NCBI RefSeq assembly: GCF_003054195.1
Contig: NZ_QBKP01000001.1
Location: 124,001 to 188,000 of the forward strand
Length of the DNA stretch: 64,000 nucleotides
DNA from: Gemmobacter caeni
GTDB taxonomy: Bacteria > Pseudomonadota > Alphaproteobacteria > Rhodobacterales > Rhodobacteraceae
Direction: 5' to 3'
Both the position numbers and the translations under genes were made by a program. Numbering within the stretch: position 1 is the stretch's first letter; every line of letters starts with the position of its first letter. Under the pieces are notes generated by a model. The model had not been told where the DNA came from, searched no databases, and was given only the letters and a program-made list of their open reading frames with translations. Of this stretch, positions 3,220-63,860 are shown in pieces.

Positions 3220-3837
3220 ATGATCGACACCGCTTTTCTGATTACCGCTTTTGCCACCCTGTTCGTGGTGATCGACCCGCCGGGTCTGGTGCCGCTGTTC
3301 ATTGCGCTGACCCGCGGCATGGATGTCGAACGCCGCCGGTCCATGGCGCTGCGGGCCTGCATCATCGCCACCATTCTGCTGACGGCCTTCGCGCTGATGG
3401 GCGAGGCGCTGCTGGGATTCATCGGCATTTCCATGCCCGCCTTTCGCATCGCGGGCGGTATCCTTCTGTTCCTGACCGCGCTGGACATGCTGTTCGAACG
3501 CCGCACCCAGCGACGCGAGGGGCAACAGGCGGACCCTGACCATGATCCTTCGGTCTTTCCGCTGGCCACGCCGCTGATCGCCGGGCCGGGCGCCATCGCC
3601 ACGATGATTCTGCTGATGGGGCAATCGGGTGGTGGCTGGCTGGGGGCGGCGCAGGTGCTGGGTCTGCTTCTGGCGATGATGGTGGCCACCTTCCTGTTCC
3701 TGCTGGCCGCCCCGCCCATCGAACGCGCGCTGGGCCGCACCGGAACCGTGGTCATCACCCGGCTTCTGGGCATGTTGCTGGCGGCGCTGTCCGTCCAGTT
3801 CGTCATCGACGGGGTGCGCGGCACCGGGCTGATCTGA
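3220..3837 (+). CDS. MarC family integral membrane protein
   Basis: A 205-residue polytopic inner-membrane protein with about six hydrophobic segments. Family marks are the opening LITAFATLFVVIDPPGLVPLFIALT and the central FPLATPLIAGPGAIATMILLMG. The reading frame is open from 3133, but the ATG at 3220 places the first membrane segment at the N-terminus as in relatives, and the 29 extra residues look unlike protein. Despite the name (multiple antibiotic resistance locus), the physiological function of MarC/YhgN proteins is unknown. Confidence 0.88.
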   Translation: MIDTAFLITAFATLFVVIDPPGLVPLFIALTRGMDVERRRSMALRACIIATILLTAFALMGEALLGFIGISMPAFRIAGGILLFLTALDMLFERRTQRREGQQADPDHDPSVFPLATPLIAGPGAIATMILLMGQSGGGWLGAAQVLGLLLAMMVATFLFLLAAPPIERALGRTGTVVITRLLGMLLAALSVQFVIDGVRGTGLI

Positions 3838-3895
3838 CGCCGCGCCCTTGCACCCTGCCCGCCTACGCCCCAGATCGGGGGCAAAGGAGACCCCG

Positions 3896-4468
3896 ATGGA
3901 CGGCGACATGACCGCGCGCATTCTCTACCTCAGCCTGCTGGTGGCCGCTGTCGGCGGCTGGGCCATGGCGGAATATCGCGGCAAGCTGGGCGCTGGTCTG
4001 CGCACGCTGATGGCCTGGGGCATGATCATCGTCGGGCTGATGGCGGGATATGGTCTCTGGACCGACATGCGCAGCAACATCCTGCCCATGCAGCAGGTGG
4101 AGGGCCAGAGCATCCACATCCCCCGCGCCGCAGACGGGCATTTCTACCTGACGCTGGAGATAGAGGGCCGCAGCATTCCCTTCATGGTCGACACCGGCGC
4201 CACCAACATCGTGCTGTCGGCGCGCGATGCGGCACGGCTTGGCGTGACGACCGAGGGTCTTGTCTACATGGGTGAGGCCAATACCGCCAATGGCACCGTG
4301 CGCACTGCGCGGGTCTGGCTGAAGGATGTGCAGCTTGGCCCCTTCCATGACGACAGCGTCACCGCCTATGTGACCGATGGCGCAATGGATGGCTCGCTTC
4401 TGGGAATGGATTACCTGCGCCGCTACCGGATGGAGATTGACGGCGACCAGATGATCCTCAGCCGGTAG
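3896..4468 (+). CDS. retropepsin-like aspartic protease, membrane-anchored
   Basis: Two hydrophobic segments (about residues 8-22 and 33-52) precede a soluble domain with FMVDTGATNIVLSARDAARL, the DTGA active-site motif of clan AA single-domain aspartic proteases, and a later GSLLGMDYL motif typical of these folds. It probably acts as a dimer on the periplasmic side. The ATG at 3896 follows AAAGGAGA; an open frame from 3848 adds 16 implausible residues. Its 3' end overlaps the opposite-strand holC by 11 bases. Family membership is clear; the substrate is not known. Confidence 0.85.
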   Translation: MDGDMTARILYLSLLVAAVGGWAMAEYRGKLGAGLRTLMAWGMIIVGLMAGYGLWTDMRSNILPMQQVEGQSIHIPRAADGHFYLTLEIEGRSIPFMVDTGATNIVLSARDAARLGVTTEGLVYMGEANTANGTVRTARVWLKDVQLGPFHDDSVTAYVTDGAMDGSLLGMDYLRRYRMEIDGDQMILSR

Positions 4469-4931
4469 CTTCCGCCAGCCGTTCGGTCTGCATGGCCCAG
4501 CGGCCGGATTCCTCGGACCAGTATTGCAGATGTGCCCCCTCGCCCGCGAGCCGCTTCCAGAGGCCCCGCGCCGCATTCACTGCGCCCTGATCCTGCCCGT
4601 CGAACAGAACCCAGACCCTTTCGAGCCCGGCCGCCTCGCCCGGTTGCGGCTCGGCCCCGTCAACCAGCATCAGCGCCCTTGCGTCATTGGCGACCGGGCC
4701 AAGGCCCAGCAGCAGCGGCTGCGCCGCCTCGCGCCCTGCGCCTTCAAGACCATGCGGCAGGAACCCGTCTTCCGGTTCCAGCCACAGCTTTTCGTCCAGC
4801 CATTCCAGCCGTCCACGATCGGTGCCGCGCAGCATCACCCGCCAGCCCTGACCCAGCGCCCGCCCCGCAAGCTGCGTCACCGTTTCCGGCACGCCGCTGC
4901 GGGTCAGGTGGTAGAACAGCACACGCGACAT
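4458..4931 (-). CDS. holC: DNA polymerase III subunit chi
   Basis: The 157-residue product starts VLFYHLTRSG and contains the HolC pattern: WLDEKLW, a run GFLPHGL, LMLVDGAEP and a central VWVLFDGQD. Chi links the clamp-loader complex to single-strand DNA binding protein during replication. It is the second gene of a pepA-holC unit, four bases after pepA, an arrangement found in many proteobacteria. Its stop codon lies inside the 3' end of the convergent protease gene. Confidence 0.92.
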   Translation of the reverse strand: MSRVLFYHLTRSGVPETVTQLAGRALGQGWRVMLRGTDRGRLEWLDEKLWLEPEDGFLPHGLEGAGREAAQPLLLGLGPVANDARALMLVDGAEPQPGEAAGLERVWVLFDGQDQGAVNAARGLWKRLAGEGAHLQYWSEESGRWAMQTERLAEATG

Positions 4932-4935
4932 GCGC

Positions 4936-6405
4936 TTACTTCTCGAACCTGTCGCGGATCATCCGGTTCAGTGCCGCCACGCCCCAGCCGGTCGCCCCCT
5001 TGGGCGCCAGTGCCGTATCGGCCTGCAACAGCGCCGTCCCGGCGATGTCGAGGTGAATCCACGGCGTTTCCGCCTTCACGAAGCGTTGCAGGAACTGCGC
5101 CGCGGTGATCGAGCCGCCATCGCGCCCGCCGATATTCTTCATATCCGCGATGCGCGATTTCAGCTTGGCGTCATAAGCGTCACCCATCGGCATGCGCCAC
5201 GCGCCCTCGCCCTCGGCTTTTGCCGCCTTCAGGAACTGTTCGCAGAAGGCATCGTTGTTCGAGAATACGCCGGTGTTTTCATGCCCCAGCGCCACGATGA
5301 TCGCCCCGGTCAGCGTGGCGAGGTCGATCACGCCGCAGGGGTTGAAACGTTCCTGCGCATACCACAGCACATCGGCCAGAACGAGCCGCCCCTCGGCATC
5401 GGTGTTGATGACCTCGATGGTGTCGCCCTTCATCGAGCGCACCACATCGCCCGGACGCTGCGCGCGCCCGTCGGGCATGTTTTCCACCAGCCCGACCAGA
5501 CCCACGACATTGGCCTTGGCCTTGCGCAGTGCCAGCGTCCGCATCACGCCCGCCACCACACCGGCGCCGCCCATGTCCATCGTCATTTCTTCCATACCGC
5601 CCGCGGGCTTGATGGAAATGCCGCCGGTATCGAACACCACCCCCTTGCCGACCAGCGCCAGCGGGGCCTCGTCCTTCGCGCCGCCGCGCCAGTGCATGAC
5701 GACGACCTTGGACGGGCTTTCCGAGCCCTGCCCCACGCCCAGAAGCGCGCGCATGCCCAGTTTTGACAGATCCTCTTCCTCCAGGATCTCGACATCCAGA
5801 CCCAGTTCCTGCATCGCGGCCAGACGGGCGGCGAAATCATAGGTGGTCAGCACATTGGCCGGTTCGTTCACCAGATCGCGGGTGAAGAACACGCCTTCCG
5901 CCAGCGCGGCCAGCGGTGCCGCCTCGGCTGCCGCCGCCTCGGGGTTCGGCACCATCAGCGTCACCGGGCCAGGCGCTTTCGCCGTGCCGGTCTTGTGCGC
6001 GGTGAAGTCATAGGCCCGCAGCGCCAGCCCGAACGAGAGTTCCGCCAGATGGCGCCCGCCTTCGGCCAGAACCAGCGTCCCTGCCTCGGACAGCGCGCGG
6101 CCGATGGCGCCGCCCGCCTTGCGCGCCTGTGCCACATCGGCCTTGCGGTCCAGCTTCACCACCTGCACCGCCTCGGCCACCAGACCCGCGGGCCAGGCCA
6201 GAACCGTGCCCTCGCCCGCTTTCTGATCCACAAAGGCCGGCGCCGCCAGATAACGCGCCAGCGCGCCCTTCATCAGCCGGTCAAGCCGCCGCCCGGCTGC
6301 GCCCAGCTTGCCGCCCTCCTCCACCACCACGACAATAAGGCCCGTGGCCTTGGCCAGCGCTTCGGCATCGACGGGCTGGAACTGGATCGGAACGGGATGC
6401 GACAT
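4936..6405 (-). CDS. pepA: leucyl aminopeptidase (M17 family)
   Basis: A 489-residue cytosolic M17 aminopeptidase. The signature NTDAEGRLVLADVL, which carries metal ligands, is present, as are GKGVVFDTGGISIKPA (catalytic Lys and Asp) and DMGGAGVV. The enzyme removes N-terminal residues with two metal ions, normally as a hexamer. I start at 6405 (MSHPVPIQF) because GGAGA lies seven bases upstream; starts at 6411 and 6438 are also open. It is the first gene of the pepA-holC unit and is divergent from lptF across about 160 bases. Confidence 0.93.
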   Translation of the reverse strand: MSHPVPIQFQPVDAEALAKATGLIVVVVEEGGKLGAAGRRLDRLMKGALARYLAAPAFVDQKAGEGTVLAWPAGLVAEAVQVVKLDRKADVAQARKAGGAIGRALSEAGTLVLAEGGRHLAELSFGLALRAYDFTAHKTGTAKAPGPVTLMVPNPEAAAAEAAPLAALAEGVFFTRDLVNEPANVLTTYDFAARLAAMQELGLDVEILEEEDLSKLGMRALLGVGQGSESPSKVVVMHWRGGAKDEAPLALVGKGVVFDTGGISIKPAGGMEEMTMDMGGAGVVAGVMRTLALRKAKANVVGLVGLVENMPDGRAQRPGDVVRSMKGDTIEVINTDAEGRLVLADVLWYAQERFNPCGVIDLATLTGAIIVALGHENTGVFSNNDAFCEQFLKAAKAEGEGAWRMPMGDAYDAKLKSRIADMKNIGGRDGGSITAAQFLQRFVKAETPWIHLDIAGTALLQADTALAPKGATGWGVAALNRMIRDRFEK

Positions 6406-56614: not shown

Positions 56615-57463
56615 TCAAAGCTGCCGGGCAGCGAAGGTGTCGCATTGCCCCATGTCGCCCGAGCGATAGCCGCGCAGGAACCAGCGTGACCGCTGTTCAG
56701 AGGTGCCATGGGTGAAGGTATGCGGCATCGGGCGGCGCCCCGCATTGCGTTGCAGCGTGTCGTCGCCAATCTGCCGGGCGGCGTTCACCGCCTCCTCGAT
56801 ATCACCTTCCTCCAGCGTGCCGAACCGCGCATCGGCCTCGCGCGCCCAGATGCCGGAAAGGCAATCGGCCTGAAGCTCGATCCGAACCGAGATCGCGTTG
56901 CTTTCAGCCTGGCTGGATTGCGCCCGCACCTGATTGGCGCGGTTCAGGATGCCGATTTCGTTCTGCACATGGTGCGCGACCTCATGCGCCACCACATAGG
57001 CCGCAGCGAAATCGCCACCCGCGCCCAGTTGCTGCGACATGGTAGTGAAGAAATCGGTATCCAAATAGACCTTGCGGTCGGTCGGGCAGTAAAACGGGCC
57101 GGTCGCGCCGCTGGCATCGCCGCAGGGCGAAGGCGTCACGCCCTTGAACAGCACCAGCACCGGCGGACGATATTCCTTGCCCACCTGTTCGGGAAAAACG
57201 TGGCCCCAGACCTCCTCGGTATCGGCCAGCGTGACCGAGACGAACTCGCCCGCCGCCTTGTCAGCGGGGCTGAGATCGGCCTGCGTGGTCTGGCTCTGCG
57301 GCGCCGAGCCTGCGCCCTCCAGCAGCGGGGTGACATCGATGCCAAGGAAATAGCCGATCAGCAGAACGGCGATCACGCCGACACCGCCCATGGCCCCGCC
57401 GGCGCTGCGCATGCCGCGACGATCCTCGATGTTGCGGCTGCCGCGCCGACCTTTCCATTCCAT
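56615..57463 (-). CDS. neutral zinc metallopeptidase (YpfJ family)
   Basis: A 282-residue membrane-anchored metallopeptidase: a hydrophobic segment near residues 25-45 (GGVGVIAVLLIGYFLGI), then an extracytoplasmic domain with FYCPTDRKVYLDTDFF and the zinc motif HEVAHHVQNEIG. The end RRPMPHTFTHGTSEQRSRWF is characteristic of this family (PF04228-type). Its physiological substrate is unknown. It is the gene immediately upstream of tRNA-Leu on the same strand. Confidence 0.92.
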   Translation of the reverse strand: MEWKGRRGSRNIEDRRGMRSAGGAMGGVGVIAVLLIGYFLGIDVTPLLEGAGSAPQSQTTQADLSPADKAAGEFVSVTLADTEEVWGHVFPEQVGKEYRPPVLVLFKGVTPSPCGDASGATGPFYCPTDRKVYLDTDFFTTMSQQLGAGGDFAAAYVVAHEVAHHVQNEIGILNRANQVRAQSSQAESNAISVRIELQADCLSGIWAREADARFGTLEEGDIEEAVNAARQIGDDTLQRNAGRRPMPHTFTHGTSEQRSRWFLRGYRSGDMGQCDTFAARQL

Positions 57464-58739: not shown

Positions 58740-59912
58740 TCAGCCGAACAGGCGGCCGTGTTCCTGAATGGCAAAGCGGTCGGTCATGCCGGCGACGTAA
58801 TCAGCGACGATGCGGGCCAGTTGCGTGTCATCTGTCGCGGCTTCGATATCGGCGCGCCATTCCTCGGGCAGCAGATCGGGGCGGCGCAGGAACAGCGGGA
58901 ACAGATCGTCCAGCATCGCCGTTACCTCGGTCCGCATCTTCACTACTGAAGGCGCGCGATACATGCGGTGGAACAGGAAGCTGCGCACCGCCTTCAATTC
59001 CTGGTACAGCGGTTTAGAGAAGCGGATGATGGTGGTGCCCATGTGCCGGATGTCATCGACCGATTTCGGCTGCGCGGCTTCCAGCCGGTTCTGCGCAACA
59101 TGGATCACATCCTCGACCATGCGGCCGAAGACGCGGCGCAGCGCCTCGTGCCGTCGGCGCATCTTTTCGAGACCGGGGTAAAGCCGGTCCACCTCCTCGA
59201 AGGCGGGGGCGGTCACCGGAAGCTCCATCAGGTCTTCCTCGGTGAACAGGCCCGAGCGCAGCCCGTCATGCAGATCGTGGTGGCTGTAGGCCACATCATC
59301 GGCGATGGCCGCCACCTGCGCCTCGGCACTGGCATGGGTGTCGAGACCCAGATCCCAGTCGGCATTCACCTCGGCCAGCGCATAGGGCAGCGGGCCTTCA
59401 TGCTTCTTGTCAGCGAAGGGGCCGATCACCGGACCGTTGTGCTTGGCAATGCCCTCAAGGCTTTCCCAGGTCAGGTTCAGCCCGTCGAAACCGGCGTAGT
59501 GCCGTTCCAGCTTCGTCACGATGCGCAAGGCCTGGGCATTGTGGTCAAAGCCGCCATAGGGCTGCATCAGCCGGGCCAGCGCATCTTCGCCGGTATGGCC
59601 GAAGGGTGTATGGCCTAGGTCATGCGCCAGCGCCACGCATTCCGCAAGATCGGTGTTCAGGCCCAGCACGCCGGAAATCGTACGCGCGACCTGCGCCACC
59701 TCGATAGAATGCGTCAGGCGGGTGCGGTAGTAATCCCCCTCGTGTTCGATGAACACCTGCGTCTTGTGTTTCAGCCGGCGGAAGGCGGAGGAATGGATGA
59801 TGCGGTCACGGTCACGCTGGAACGGCGAACGGAAGGTGGACATGCCCTCGTCATGGCGCCGCCCGCGCGAGGCTTCAGGCAGGCAGGCGAAGGGGGCGAG
59901 GATCTGGGTCAT
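58740..59912 (-). CDS. dgt: deoxyguanosinetriphosphate triphosphohydrolase-like protein
   Basis: A 390-residue HD-domain enzyme that cuts dNTPs to nucleosides and triphosphate. Motifs: RRLKHKTQVFIEHEGDYYRTRLTHS with the first His, and ALAHDLGHTPFGHTGEDAL, the HD pair. The N-terminal MTQILAPFACLPEASRGR is typical of the alphaproteobacterial type. The frame is open to 59990, but the ATG at 59912 gives the usual length. Divergent from the Fe-S protein gene. Confidence 0.92.
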   Translation of the reverse strand: MTQILAPFACLPEASRGRRHDEGMSTFRSPFQRDRDRIIHSSAFRRLKHKTQVFIEHEGDYYRTRLTHSIEVAQVARTISGVLGLNTDLAECVALAHDLGHTPFGHTGEDALARLMQPYGGFDHNAQALRIVTKLERHYAGFDGLNLTWESLEGIAKHNGPVIGPFADKKHEGPLPYALAEVNADWDLGLDTHASAEAQVAAIADDVAYSHHDLHDGLRSGLFTEEDLMELPVTAPAFEEVDRLYPGLEKMRRRHEALRRVFGRMVEDVIHVAQNRLEAAQPKSVDDIRHMGTTIIRFSKPLYQELKAVRSFLFHRMYRAPSVVKMRTEVTAMLDDLFPLFLRRPDLLPEEWRADIEAATDDTQLARIVADYVAGMTDRFAIQEHGRLFG

Positions 59913-60012
59913 GGTCGCAGGTCGTTCTTCCGGTCGGTTGGCAGAGGCTTGTTTGGCAAACCTGCTGCCCCTATATGATGAAAACCCCATGAAGGATATG
60001 GAAATTCCGACG

Positions 60013-60360
60013 ATGGACCTTCAGCTTCCCGCAGATGCGGCCCTGCCGCGTGTCACCGACCGGGCCTTTGCCCGTCTGGCCGAGATCGCCGAGATGACGG
60101 GCGAGCGCAAGGCATTGCGCGTCGCGGTCGAGGGCGGCGGTTGTTCGGGCTTCCAGTATGACATCCGGCTGGACGATGCGGCGGGCGACGATCTGGTGCT
60201 TGAAAAGGATGGCCAGCAGGTGCTGGTCGATCCGGTGTCGCTGCCCTTCCTGCAAAATGCCGTGGTGGATTTCACCGAAGAGCTGATCGGCGCGCGCTTC
60301 GTGATTGAAAATCCGAATGCCTCGTCCAACTGCGGCTGCGGCACGTCCTTCTCGATCTGA
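60013..60360 (+). CDS. HesB/IscA-type iron-sulfur cluster carrier
   Basis: A 115-residue A-type scaffold. The three conserved cysteines are visible: GGGCSGFQYDI and SSNCGCGTSFSI. These proteins carry Fe-S clusters to client enzymes. The start is uncertain: ATGs at 59989 and 59998 are in frame, but a TATATGAT-like promoter sequence at 59974 sits so close to them that the later ATG (60013) is preferred. ErpA versus IscA subtype cannot be separated by eye. Confidence 0.9.
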   Translation: MDLQLPADAALPRVTDRAFARLAEIAEMTGERKALRVAVEGGGCSGFQYDIRLDDAAGDDLVLEKDGQQVLVDPVSLPFLQNAVVDFTEELIGARFVIENPNASSNCGCGTSFSI

Positions 60361-60380
60361 TCTTTCCCGATCCCGGCGGC

Positions 60381-61277
60381 TCAGCGCGCCGGCGCGGCGC
60401 GCTGGCTGTGGATCAGCCAAAGCCCCGAAGCAACGACCAGCGCAGAACCCACCCAGAGATGCGCGCCGGTGAGTTCGCCGAACAGATGTTCGCCGAGCAG
60501 TACCATCCACAGGAACTGGACATTGGCGATCTGCATGACGACATAGGCGGGCAGCATCCGCAAAATGATGACCATCAGCCAGCGCGTGCCGACGATGAAC
60601 AGCGTATATGCGACCAGCAACGCCAGATCCGCCCAGCCCATCGGCTGCCAGACGAAGGGTGCCACGACCGCGCCGAGAACCATGCAGGCGAGTTGAGCAT
60701 AGAAGACCTGCGCCATGGAATGCGTGTGGCTCTTGCAGATCCGCCGCGACAGGACGATGGAAGCCGAGCCCGACAGGCTGGCGGCAAGCCCGATCCAGTG
60801 ACCGGGGGTGATACCGCCCAGACCTTCGGGAAACAGGAACAGCATCCCGGCCAGCCCCAGCCCCAGCGCGCACCAGACTGCGGGCGCCAGCCGCTCGCGC
60901 AGGATCAGGCCAGACAGGACCGCGCCAAAGATCGGCATGATGGCGATGAAAACGAAGATTTCCGCGAAGGGCAGAAAGCGCAGGGCATAAAAAAAGCCGG
61001 TCGTGCTGATGGCCCCCAGAGTCGAGCGCAGCGCAACCAGCCAGGGGCTGCCGGTGTGGAACACGCGGCTGCCCTGCCCCGCCGCCGCCGTACCCAGACC
61101 GACCAGCACCGCAATAAGACCGGACAGCAGCATCAACTGCGGCGCGGCATAGGTTGCGATCAGATCCTTGGCTATCGCATCGGCGCTGACCGAAATGAGA
61201 GTGTTCAGCACAACAAGCCCCGCCCCGATCAGGGCGGTTTTCTGCAAGACAGGGCGCAGTCCAACCTCTGCGGTCAT
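60381..61277 (-). CDS. EamA-family (DMT) transporter
   Basis: A 298-residue membrane protein with ten hydrophobic segments and two EamA repeats, of the RhaT/YdcZ drug/metabolite-transporter type. Marks: SADAIAKDLIATYAAPQLMLLSGL, RFLPFAEIFVFIAIMPIFGAVLSG and NVQFLWMVLLGEHLFGE. Such proteins usually export small solutes. The ATG at 61277 overlaps the stop of the unknown 363-residue gene by one base (TGATG), so it is coupled to it and probably serves the same process; its solute is unknown. Confidence 0.88.
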   Translation of the reverse strand: MTAEVGLRPVLQKTALIGAGLVVLNTLISVSADAIAKDLIATYAAPQLMLLSGLIAVLVGLGTAAAGQGSRVFHTGSPWLVALRSTLGAISTTGFFYALRFLPFAEIFVFIAIMPIFGAVLSGLILRERLAPAVWCALGLGLAGMLFLFPEGLGGITPGHWIGLAASLSGSASIVLSRRICKSHTHSMAQVFYAQLACMVLGAVVAPFVWQPMGWADLALLVAYTLFIVGTRWLMVIILRMLPAYVVMQIANVQFLWMVLLGEHLFGELTGAHLWVGSALVVASGLWLIHSQRAAPAR

Positions 61278-62368
61278 CAGGCCCCCTTCCGCACGGCGCC
61301 GTGCGCCAGAACTGGCCGGGCAAAGGTTGCGAAAAACGCCTCGAACTCCGGTCCCTCCGCCATGGCCCTGTCCGCGATTTCCAGTGCTTCGGGCGACAGC
61401 CGCCCCGCGCAGGCCCGCCGCATGGCAGGGTAATCCGCCTCGCGCCGTCCTCCAAGGGCCATAAGGGCCTGCGACCATTCGCGCAGCGGAGAGATCAGGG
61501 GACGCACCAAAGAAAATCGCATAGGACCAACCGGGTAATCTTCGCCAAAGGCGGTTTCTCCCATAGTCCCCATCAACCAGCGATTGACAAGAAAATTATG
61601 GTAGGCGTCGGAAGAATCTTCACAGACGCCCGCTTCGATGCGGAAGGCCGCAGATTCCCGGTGCAAATGGCCCAGCCACAGCGGCGGGACCGGCAGTCCG
61701 GCATAGCGCAGGGCGATGCAGACCTCGCCCAGAAGGTCTCCGTTCTGTTCCAGCCAGGCCAGATTTCCCAGAACATGAAGCGATTGTTGCGCGGCCTTTG
61801 GCAGGTGCAGCGGACGGCGGCCATATTCGGACAGGTAAAACACCGCATGCAGCAGGTCATAGGCGGCGCGCGGATTTGGCAGGGCAAAAGTTTCGGGCCG
61901 GGACATGAAGCCGGTGAGCCGCGCGTCAAGCCCCGGCAGATCGACGGCCTGTCCTGCGCGCGCCATCAGAAAACGGCTTTCGGCGCGCTGGAGATCGTTC
62001 ACCTCCATTCCGATCCAGCCTTCGGAGGCGATGCGCGCGGCCATCCGCGCCGCTGTATCGCCCGGCTGGCCCAGATCCTCCAGCCAGACCGCGACACCCA
62101 GCATCATGCGGTAATATTGCGGGTGAAAGGCAAGCTGATCCTCCAGCCCGTCATGGAAAGGCTGGTAGACCGCAAGCGCTGCCTCGGGCACATCGTGGTT
62201 CAGCGCCGAAAGGATCATCAGAAGTTCGGCATTTTCCTTCAGCCACCACGCATCGCCCTGGCGCCTGCGCCCGGTGGCAAAGCCCGACAGCAGTGAAACA
62301 AGCCCGCCGGTTGCGCCCATGGCAGGACGGGCCGCGCGACGCGCGGCGAAACTCACGATGTTGGTCAT
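61277..62368 (-). CDS. protein of unknown function (363 aa), operon with repeat peptide
   Basis: I do not recognise a defined domain. The protein opens with MTNIVSFAARRAARPAMG, then an alpha-helical body with repeated helix-like stretches (LLMILSALNHDVPEAALAVYQPF, HPQYYRMMLGVAVWLEDLG). Only one or two cysteines occur, and there is no signal peptide or membrane segment. It lies 77 bases after the small repeat peptide gene across a terminator and overlaps the EamA gene. It may be a Rhodobacterales-restricted family; a role in processing the peptide is only inferred from position. Confidence 0.8.
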   Translation of the reverse strand: MTNIVSFAARRAARPAMGATGGLVSLLSGFATGRRRQGDAWWLKENAELLMILSALNHDVPEAALAVYQPFHDGLEDQLAFHPQYYRMMLGVAVWLEDLGQPGDTAARMAARIASEGWIGMEVNDLQRAESRFLMARAGQAVDLPGLDARLTGFMSRPETFALPNPRAAYDLLHAVFYLSEYGRRPLHLPKAAQQSLHVLGNLAWLEQNGDLLGEVCIALRYAGLPVPPLWLGHLHRESAAFRIEAGVCEDSSDAYHNFLVNRWLMGTMGETAFGEDYPVGPMRFSLVRPLISPLREWSQALMALGGRREADYPAMRRACAGRLSPEALEIADRAMAEGPEFEAFFATFARPVLAHGAVRKGA

Positions 62369-62399
62369 TGGCCCTCTCCGGCAGATTGCCCGGCAGGAA

Positions 62400-62439
62400 A
62401 GCCCCCCTTTGGCGCCGGGCCCGGGCGAAAAGGGGGGCT
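62400..62439 (-). terminator. strong hairpin between repeat peptide and unknown gene
   Basis: Perfect 11-base arms AGCCCCCCTTT and AAAGGGGGGCT enclose an 18-base GC-rich inner sequence that can itself fold; the reverse-strand exit is TTTCCT. Placed directly after the small gene, it should make the peptide mRNA far more abundant than the downstream genes, while allowing read-through. Confidence 0.75.
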
Positions 62440-62445
62440 GTCAGA

Positions 62446-62700
62446 TCAGTTGGAGCAGGGCATCAGCGCGACGCCGGCGCCTGCAACCATGGTCTCGCCT
62501 TCGATGTTCGAGCAGGGCATCAGATCGGCGGCCACGCCGGTTTCGATGTTCGACGCCGGCATCAGCGCCACGCCGCCGCCCAGGATCATCTCGGTGCCCT
62601 CGATGTTCGAGCAGGGCATCAGATCGGCGCCAAGACCCATGGTCATGTCCGCCACATCGGCCGCTTCGGTGACTTCGACGAATTTACGCAGTGCGCTCAT
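62446..62700 (-). CDS. small repeat peptide with four LMP[C/A]SN motifs (84 aa)
   Basis: A 24-residue leader-like part (SALRKFVEVTEAADVADMTMG) precedes four repeats: ADLMPCSNIEG, VALMPASNIET, ADLMPCSNIEG, and VALMPCSN at the C-terminus. Three cysteines occur, one per repeat except the second, where Ala replaces Cys. No signal peptide or membrane segment. GGGGG lies before the ATG at 62700. The design (leader plus repeated cysteine-containing cores ending at the C-terminus) resembles multi-core precursor peptides, but no known modifying enzyme is adjacent. A structural repeat protein is the alternative. Confidence 0.8.
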   Translation of the reverse strand: MSALRKFVEVTEAADVADMTMGLGADLMPCSNIEGTEMILGGGVALMPASNIETGVAADLMPCSNIEGETMVAGAGVALMPCSN

Positions 62701-63050
62701 GATAAACCCCCGTGGTTCGAGCAGTGTTTGCCCCCTGAGCCTTGCACCTAGTAATTGATTTTTCAAAGAAAATTGCATTCACAGGTTGTATCCAGCCTTA
62801 TCCACATGCCGGGCTGGCAACAACTATCGGATAGAGTTAACCAATTGGGCGAAATTATGACTTATCCACGCGTCAGTCTCATGCGAACAATCCACAGCCC
62901 CGGCCGGAAAGCATGATTCGCGAATATTAACAAAGCCTTAATTCCACAGCATTTCCGAGCGGCACTCCCGGCGCACCGCATCGGGGTTGCGGTCTGTCCC
63001 CTCGCGGGCGATAGAGGTCTGGCCAGATGTCCGACAGAAGCGGAGAGCCG
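62701..63050. other. 350-base intergenic region between repeat peptide and xth
   Basis: AT-rich for this genome from about 62750 to 62945. It holds the divergent promoters of the repeat-peptide operon and the xth gene, and several DnaA-box-like sequences (see next entry). No gene is supported; the open frames on the strand of xth start inside unlikely composition. Confidence 0.6.
62775..62948. other. cluster of DnaA-box-like sites
   Basis: TTATCCACA (62798-62806) is a perfect consensus DnaA box; TTATCCACG (62862-62870) differs by one base; CAATCCACA (62888-62896) and GCATTCACA (62775-62783) are 7-of-9 matches and AATTCCACA (62940-62948) is weaker. All are on the same strand within 174 AT-rich bases. 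This could be a replication origin or a DnaA-controlled promoter; no dnaA, parAB or gidA genes are near. Confidence 0.4.
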
Positions 63051-63860
63051 ATGAAACTCGCAACTTTCAACATCAACGGGATCAAGGCCCGGATCGAGGC
63101 CCTGCCCCGCTGGCTGGACAGCGCCCGCCCCGATGTCGTGGCCTTGCAGGAAATCAAGTCGGTCGACGAAGGCTTTCCGCGCGCCCTGTTCGAGGACATG
63201 GGATACCGCGTCGAAACCCACGGGCAGAAAAGCTTCAACGGTGTCGCCCTGCTGTCGCGCCTGCCGCTGGAAGATGTGACACGCGGTCTGCCCGGCGCGC
63301 CCGAAGACGAACAGGCCCGCTGGATCGAGGCGAGCGTGATCGGCGAGAAACGCGCCGTCCGGTTCTGCGGGCTGTATCTGCCGAACGGCAACCCCGTCAG
63401 CTTCGGCCCCGATGGCGCCCCTGAGGCCGAGGGGAAATACGGCTACAAGCTCTCGTGGATGGCGCGCATGCGCCAGCGCGCGACCGAACTTCTGGCGACG
63501 GAAGAGCCGATGGTGATGGCCGGTGACTACAACATCATCCCGCAGCCCGAGGATGCGGCGCGTCCCGAGACCTGGACCAAGGATGCGCTGTTCCTGCCCG
63601 AAAGCCGCGCGGCCTTCCGCCGGATCGTGAATCTCGGTTTCACTGATGCGTTCCGGGCGCGGGTAACCGGCCCGGGCCATTACAGTTTCTGGGATTATCA
63701 GGCGGGCGCATGGGAACGGAACAACGGCATCCGCATTGACCACTTGCTCCTCTCTCCGCAGGCGGCAGATCTGTTGCGTGACGTGCAGATCGACCGGGCG
63801 GTGCGGGGCGGCGAAAAACCCTCCGATCACGTCCCGGTCTGGATCGACCTCGACGCCTGA
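63051..63860 (+). CDS. xth: exodeoxyribonuclease III
   Basis: A 269-residue apurinic/apyrimidinic endonuclease and 3' exonuclease for base excision repair. Catalytic and metal motifs are visible: LATFNINGIKARIE, VVALQEIKSVDEGFP, GDYNIIPQPEDAARPETW, IDHLLLSP and SDHVPVWIDLD. CGGAGAG precedes the ATG at 63051; an ATG at 63027 adds eight residues. The next gene begins 21 bases later. Confidence 0.95.
   Translation: MKLATFNINGIKARIEALPRWLDSARPDVVALQEIKSVDEGFPRALFEDMGYRVETHGQKSFNGVALLSRLPLEDVTRGLPGAPEDEQARWIEASVIGEKRAVRFCGLYLPNGNPVSFGPDGAPEAEGKYGYKLSWMARMRQRATELLATEEPMVMAGDYNIIPQPEDAARPETWTKDALFLPESRAAFRRIVNLGFTDAFRARVTGPGHYSFWDYQAGAWERNNGIRIDHLLLSPQAADLLRDVQIDRAVRGGEKPSDHVPVWIDLDA

Follow-up and report, generated by a model that had tools for sequence, protein, structure and literature searches.

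A multi-core precursor-like peptide paired with a DUF6902 protein in Rhodobacteraceae points to an undescribed route to short modified peptides

The peptide and DUF6902 locus

We analysed a 64,000-nucleotide stretch of the Gemmobacter caeni genome (NCBI RefSeq assembly GCF_003054195.1, contig NZ_QBKP01000001.1, positions 124,001 to 188,000; hereafter the window), in which a short repeat-bearing peptide gene, a gene for a protein of the Pfam family DUF6902 and an EamA transporter gene follow one another on the reverse strand. A preliminary description of this DNA had proposed an undescribed modified-peptide system, in which the DUF6902 protein would act on a "cysteine peptide" that the transporter exports. 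The features concerned are as follows.

62446-62700 (including the stop codon, 62448-62446), reverse strand: gene for a multi-core precursor-like peptide of 84 amino acids, no known family, ATG at 62700
62605-62622, reverse strand: core 1, LMPCSN, residues 27-32, closing the unit GLGADLMPCSN
62548-62565, reverse strand: core 2, LMPASN, residues 46-51, closing the unit GGGVALMPASN
62506-62523, reverse strand: core 3, LMPCSN, residues 60-65, closing the unit GVAADLMPCSN
62449-62466, reverse strand: core 4, LMPCSN, residues 79-84, closing the unit GAGVALMPCSN at the exact C-terminus
62400-62439, reverse strand: G+C-rich hairpin with a perfect 11-bp outer stem, between the peptide gene and the putative enzyme gene
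61277-62368, reverse strand: gene for a DUF6902 protein of 363 amino acids, predicted peptide-modifying enzyme (epimerase by homology to DUF6895), with putative active-site residues E48, Y170, H174, Y178, D211, E215 and H257
60381-61277, reverse strand: gene for an EamA (drug/metabolite transporter, DMT) protein of 298 amino acids, accessory member

Translation from 62700 to 62449 yielded MSALRKFVEVTEAADVADMTMGLGADLMPCSNIEGTEMILGGGVALMPASNIETGVAADLMPCSNIEGETMVAGAGVALMPCSN, a peptide of 84 residues with three copies of LMPCSN and one of LMPASN, the last copy forming the C-terminus exactly as the preliminary description had it. A second in-frame ATG at 62778 would extend the peptide to 110 residues, but seven aligned Gemmobacter relatives all keep M[ST]A at the start, which favours the ATG at 62700. 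The peptide had no match at E ≤ 0.1 in Pfam or NCBIfam, and no signal-like N-terminus was evident by eye. An AlphaFold2 model, built from 8 sequences only, predicted it to be disordered (predicted local distance difference test score, pLDDT, 40.9), which fits a substrate role. The codons of the four cores vary at CCC/CCG and TCG/TCC, in addition to the single change from Cys to Ala; because the core codons differ, and because 105 of 107 related loci show the same architecture, the repeat is not a product of chance. Where peptides of relatives passed a Pfam cut-off, as for PF13296 (L100; 24.4 bits, cut-off 22.4, with no single stretch passing) and PF07016 (L133; 20.4 bits, cut-off 19.8), we judged these to be chance matches of repeats, as were their other weak matches to low-complexity families.

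The peptide stop codon is separated from the start of the DUF6902 gene by 77 bp (62369-62445). This whole gap folds at -38.6 kcal/mol (z -0.6 relative to shuffled sequences, not significant); its hairpin is strong but does not exceed what its composition would give. In relatives z fell below -2 for 21 of 90 gaps (median z -0.76), in a set that excluded gaps with N, gaps under 35 bases, and L069, L117 and L139. The hairpin could set the ratio of precursor to enzyme, in the manner of a RiPP-type attenuator (RiPP, ribosomally synthesized and post-translationally modified peptide). Downstream, the TGA of the DUF6902 gene and the ATG of the EamA gene have one base in common (TGATG at 61279-61275), bearing out the one-base overlap of the two further same-strand genes noted earlier. 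The transporter assignment rests on two stretches of the EamA domain (46.5 bits, cut-off 28.2), found in a Pfam scan (E ≤ 0.1) of the nine proteins encoded between 56615 and 63860.

Pairing of the peptide with DUF6902 across genomes

A plain sequence search with the window peptide found it in only 2 of 394 sampled genomes of the family, its own and that of one congener, giving it the appearance of an orphan. DUF6902 was present in 108 of these genomes, and we read flanks of up to about 6 kb per side for all 111 matches; four of them are 3' fragments at contig ends, leaving 107 loci with a 5' flank. At 105 of the 107 a repeat peptide is encoded upstream on the same strand, 104 being found by script (at least two units with one core) and one by eye (L069, where the stretch is partly masked). 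Only L117 and L139 lack such a peptide. The distance from peptide end to DUF6902 domain is mostly 70-210 bases, with six loci at 211-563 bases. The closest named DUF6902 relatives of the window are Gemmobacter species, with 81% identity in the case of G. lutimaris.

The converse test gave the same picture. A profile built from the last repeats of 24 peptides and run against the same 394 genomes had strong matches (E ≤ 1e-4) in 102 genomes, every one of which also encodes DUF6902, while 286 genomes have neither and six have DUF6902 only. Three of these six (G041, G283 and G391) carry divergent repeat peptides (L136, L133 and L138, respectively), G139 holds a contig-edge fragment, and G039 (L139) and G288 (L117) lack a peptide. 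Marginal profile matches (E 0.002-0.01) occurred in seven genomes without DUF6902. Furthermore, when 84,980 species genomes of the GTDB were scanned by patterns and the best 80 of 386 relatives examined, the script found a peptide at 78 of the 80 loci; the remaining two, L183 and L186, show repeats despite partial masking, and L186 is the same stretch as L069. The family sample and the GTDB scan overlap and are therefore not independent counts. The peptide and DUF6902 are therefore tightly paired.

A class-wide search produced DUF6902 matches in 4 of 240 genomes, three of them over the cut-off and all within this family, the fourth a weak match in a genome outside the family, and a plasmid search with the window DUF6902 protein returned no match. 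In the samples examined DUF6902 thus looks confined to the Rhodobacteraceae, where its carriers include the marine roseobacters Ruegeria, Salipiger and Marivita.

EamA lies directly downstream of DUF6902 in 82 of the 108 loci for which 1.4 kb or more of downstream sequence was available, and is best seen as an accessory exporter. The modified-peptide system of the preliminary description is thus supported as far as a multi-core precursor-like peptide tied to the 363-residue protein is concerned, but not as regards EamA as a fixed partner. The same division applies to the homologous peptides without partner genes that it had named as contrary evidence: no strong match was without DUF6902, but EamA is not a constant partner.

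Further genes near the pair are the following.

63027-63860, forward strand: exonuclease III-like gene (Exo_endo_phos, xth), divergent, a conserved neighbour outside the system, 100 of 111 loci
59989-60360, forward strand: Fe-S_biosyn gene (A-type carrier, erpA), convergent, a conserved neighbour outside the system, 97 of 111 loci

The pair (window region 58740-63860) is almost always flanked by an exonuclease III-like gene on one side and erpA/dgt-like genes on the other: among the 111 loci, some cut by contig ends, xth was found at 100, erpA at 97 and dgt at 97. In the window a Zn_peptidase gene occupies 56615-57463, but it shows no linkage to the pair in other genomes (present at 3 of 111 loci). 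As the position between xth and erpA/dgt is nearly constant, the pair seems to have been gained or lost at a single chromosomal site. Such synteny would also allow neighbours to be co-inherited passively, and a fast-evolving repeat reading frame might then stand beside DUF6902 at this site by accident, with no system at all. We regard this as scarcely credible, given that a strong peptide match without DUF6902 was seen in 0 of 394 genomes, that the core is under purifying selection despite diverged codons, and that peptide and site residues were lost jointly at two loci (both described below).

Repeat units, selection and core diversity

The repeat unit is an 11-mer consisting of Gly, five variable residues (often DAVEM-like), usually Phe (Met in Gemmobacter) and a tetrapeptide. 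Its initial Gly is invariant across 24 aligned peptides. Peptides contain 2-20 units (median 6), and repeat proteins reach 420 residues (L035), so that the comparison across genomes proposed in the preliminary description revealed a varying number of repeats alongside the conserved co-occurrence at 105 of 107 DUF6902 loci. In a parse of 105 peptides, which wrongly takes in L117 and about six mis-registered cores, the last tetrapeptide forms the exact C-terminus in 60 and lies within five residues of the C-terminus in a further 29; unit position 9 is Ser in 82.

As a control for selection we compared 624 units from 91 peptides, anchored on G and F only. Within a peptide, the tetrapeptide (residues 8-11) is 93-97% identical, but identical residues have the same codon in only 43-58% of cases. 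Identity falls to 25-35% in the linkers (residues -6 to -1 and 14-17), with positions 2-6, 12 and 13 beside the core intermediate (48-77%). This combination of codon and linker drift with tetrapeptide conservation implies that the repeats are old and that the tetrapeptide is maintained by selection.

Between species the core changes readily. We counted 48 kinds of pentapeptide core across 104 peptides (L112, L113 and L133, out of register in the parse, were read by eye), including FSSGS, FTSWS, FTSGS, FTCGL, FTTSC, FTNWC, FPSGS, MMCCS and MPCSN, the commonest being FSSGS, FTSWS and FTSGS, each in many species. At least 63 core changes map onto a FastTree tree of DUF6902 proteins with 99 labelled tips, for which seven labels were assigned by hand and two mis-registered ones dropped. 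Marivita has six cores among 11 loci, and the nine Gemmobacter loci have MPCSN (seven), MPASN and MLCSN, with MPTSN in congener G361. The label "cysteine peptide", and Cys as the target of modification, did not survive this comparison: congeners carry four copies of LMPTSN (L003/L131) or seven of LMPASN (L168), and Ser predominates at position 9. Because Cys-free cores are common even within the genus, we ruled out chemistry centred on Cys, whether methanobactin-like or thioether.

The DUF6902 protein and joint loss with the peptide

The window protein matches DUF6902 (PF21843) over residues 1-351 (348.4 bits, E 5.2e-104, cut-off 27). Its AlphaFold2 model, from 65 sequences, is of high confidence and nearly all-helical (pLDDT 91.7; predicted template modelling score, pTM, 0.89). 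A sequence search of solved structures gave one match, at an unreliable E of 0.21. The model also has a weak likeness to alpha/alpha-toroid proteins (GH154, transcobalamin, C3b; template modelling score about 0.3-0.36), which we do not claim as a relationship.

We aligned 104 distinct DUF6902 proteins (105 rows, as the window's appears twice; three truncated ones were excluded). R34, W42, E45, D254 and others are invariant. H174, Y178 and D211 vary only in L117 (to Arg, His and Ser) and L139 (to Gln, Gln and Leu), and these are precisely the loci that lack a peptide. L139 alone has also lost H257 and E215. Two H174 losses would land on both peptide-less loci in 1 of 5356 random draws. Site residues and peptide have thus been lost jointly. 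Both DUF6902 genes keep open frames, and a possible reading is that L117 and L139 represent a natural loss or change of DUF6902 function.

These data bear on whether the repeat peptide might itself be a functional binding or structural protein, with DUF6902 as a chaperone or binding partner and no enzyme. The length of the largest repeat proteins would suit such a role, as would an operon in which neither protease nor leader binder was recognised. We nevertheless consider it improbable, since the window peptide is predicted to be disordered, the tetrapeptide is held while the linkers are poorly conserved, core switches on the scale seen here could hardly be tolerated by a structural repeat, and DUF6902 has invariant or near-invariant His, Asp, Glu and Tyr residues.

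Relationship of DUF6902 to DUF6895

The window DUF6902 protein also exceeds the Pfam cut-off for DUF6895 (72.5 bits, cut-off 23.8). For this family a lasso-peptide epimerase has been reported (Shi et al. 2026, ACS Catal. 16:1757, cited in the review PMC13352647), and the statement in the preliminary description that no known RiPP enzyme is present therefore needs revision. Profile-profile comparison with hhalign aligned DUF6902 and DUF6895 over 192 columns (probability 96.9, E 1.7e-10); in the reverse test one of six DUF6895 proteins had a sub-threshold DUF6902 match (18.8 bits, cut-off 27). By these comparisons DUF6902 is homologous to DUF6895.

We then compared site residues in seven rows, comprising six DUF6895 proteins (from Pseudalkalibacillus, two Streptomyces plasmids and three other genomes) and L159 (G396), a weaker relative known by a weak sub-threshold DUF6902 match alone. 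E48, Y170, H174, G183, D211 and E215 are common to DUF6902 and all seven. H257, in a YH motif, is present in six; the L247 row ended before this position, and the full L247 protein has the motif. At seven of the eight DUF6895 loci examined (Bacillota, Streptomyces and Pseudomonadota; a ninth plasmid match, H5, is not counted), a small open reading frame (ORF) precedes the DUF6895 gene by 2-66 bp on the same strand:

L244, 4602-4862: ORF upstream of a DUF6895 gene
L245, 5747-5953: ORF upstream of a DUF6895 gene
L247, 4680-4904: ORF upstream of a DUF6895 gene
L157, 7506-7703: ORF upstream of a DUF6895 gene
L158, 8437-8868: ORF upstream of a DUF6895 gene
L248, 2148-2534: ORF upstream of a DUF6895 gene
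L249, 4849-5259: ORF upstream of a DUF6895 gene

Five of the seven have a common pattern like LVGPWFVL or VAGYV-W--Y, which L158 and L249 carry twice. From their sequences these ORFs look like RiPP precursors, and possibly represent further undescribed RiPP families. In several of them a leader resembling KSG[IL]LN is combined with cores around GPWFVL or VAGYVxxW. The eighth locus, L246, lies on a Streptomyces plasmid and has two adjacent DUF6895-like frames (3619-4986 and 4923-5903) with a THxVFHLTDWG motif.

In light of the homology to DUF6895, the shared site residues and the pairing with the peptide, we interpret DUF6902 as an enzyme that modifies peptides, most probably by epimerization. 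In the same multi-core system DUF6902 might instead carry out another modification, such as hydroxylation, dehydration, cyclization at Ser, Thr or Cys, or specific cleavage. The cores are rich in Ser, Thr and Cys, the homology to DUF6895 is remote, and the single functional report (Shi et al. 2026) concerns lasso peptides. These alternatives appear less likely, though not negligible: at E ≤ 0.1 the protein matches only DUF6902 and DUF6895, with no nucleotide-binding, radical S-adenosylmethionine (radical-SAM) or oxygenase domain; its site residues are those common to DUF6895; and Ala at position 9, in window core 2 and in L168, makes a fixed Ser or Cys chemistry there unlikely.

Discussion

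Taken together, these data lead us to favour, by a modest degree of confidence, a multi-core RiPP-like system in which DUF6902, most likely an epimerase, would modify each core. According to this model, the ribosome would make a short unfolded precursor in which an N-terminal leader, often of the form M[ST]A..K, is followed by 2-20 copies of G-x5-[FM]-x-x-x-x. The DUF6902 protein, predicted to be nearly all-helical, would bind this precursor and act on the tetrapeptide of each unit, inverting one alpha-carbon from L to D through a His/carboxylate acid-base site (H174, D211, E215, H257), with the conserved Gly and the residues following it serving as a local recognition element. Position 11, the last core residue, at which most precursors end, would be a first guess for the inverted residue; since cores are also internal, a free C-terminus would not be required. 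As the operon contains no protease, release of the short core peptides would rely on house-keeping proteases of the cell. EamA would then export them, a step that, with 26 of 108 loci lacking the transporter, is restricted to the loci that have it.

Several observations weigh against this model. EamA was not found at those 26 loci, among the 108 with enough downstream sequence. A Foldseek comparison of the DUF6902 model with solved folds gave nothing reliable (best E 0.19), and DUF6895 and DUF6902 are remote enough that they could catalyse different reactions. The joint loss concerns two loci only, to which general gene decay may have contributed, and the L139 protein also lacks many other conserved positions. 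No precursor ORF was found at L246. Finally, a protease or leader-binding domain is common in RiPP clusters, if not universal, and none was recognised in the operon (Pfam, E ≤ 0.1).

More tentatively, and with appreciable doubt, we suggest that the pair may define a new Rhodobacteraceae RiPP class, in which DUF6902 would introduce one D-residue into every one of the 2-20 near-identical cores of a single precursor, yielding many copies of a D-amino-acid-containing tetra- to hexapeptide that would be exported (often by EamA) as a signal or metal-binding small molecule, with the core switching between close species. Within the open literature we found neither DUF6902 nor DUF6749 named, and nothing recognisable as this system in work on multi-core RiPPs in Rhodobacterales, EamA and Roseobacter, multi-core D-amino-acid peptides or Rhodobacteraceae repeat peptides; subscription papers and preprints were outside both searches.

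The data point to an undescribed route to short modified peptides, the pair recurring across the family with a repeat that often differs between species. Two neighbouring genes without known function thereby become a testable biosynthetic pair, with cores that can be read from sequence and a predicted epimerase. If the model is correct, the range of a newly reported epimerase family would widen from lasso peptides to multi-core substrates, for which the 48 natural core variants offer material for studies of enzyme tolerance. With marine roseobacters among the carriers, small-peptide chemistry of this kind may be widespread in the sea.

Comparison with known systems

The lasso-peptide epimerase of the DUF6895 family resembles the window system in its homologous protein, in the common site residues and in the small precursor-like ORF upstream. 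It differs in that DUF6902 is a separate Pfam family and in that the window substrate has multi-core repeats rather than a lasso core; moreover, no lasso peptidase (B) or cyclase (C) was present among the nine window proteins scanned. In the case of MslH, the epimerase of the lasso peptide MS-271, PMC10406935 describes the inversion of one alpha-carbon of a ribosomal precursor, at the C-terminal Trp, by an enzyme with two His/Asp pairs and a calcineurin-like fold with Ca(II). As DUF6902 is predicted to be nearly all-helical, it would at most do the same job by another fold.

Radical-SAM peptide epimerases of the PoyD/proteusin type introduce several D-residues into one ribosomal peptide. Multiple D-residues per peptide would likewise be expected here, but no radical-SAM protein is found among the window proteins scanned. 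In cyanobactin- and dikaritin-like systems, a leader and repeated cores are combined in one precursor, with the modifying enzyme encoded adjacently. The window locus has the leader, the repeated cores and the adjacent partner gene, but none of the enzymes of those systems was recognised there and, unlike theirs, its core is a tetrapeptide that an invariant Gly precedes by seven residues. In its overall design, the locus nevertheless has what characterises a multi-core RiPP: a short precursor, a leader, repeated conserved cores and a dedicated partner gene with a probable enzymatic role.

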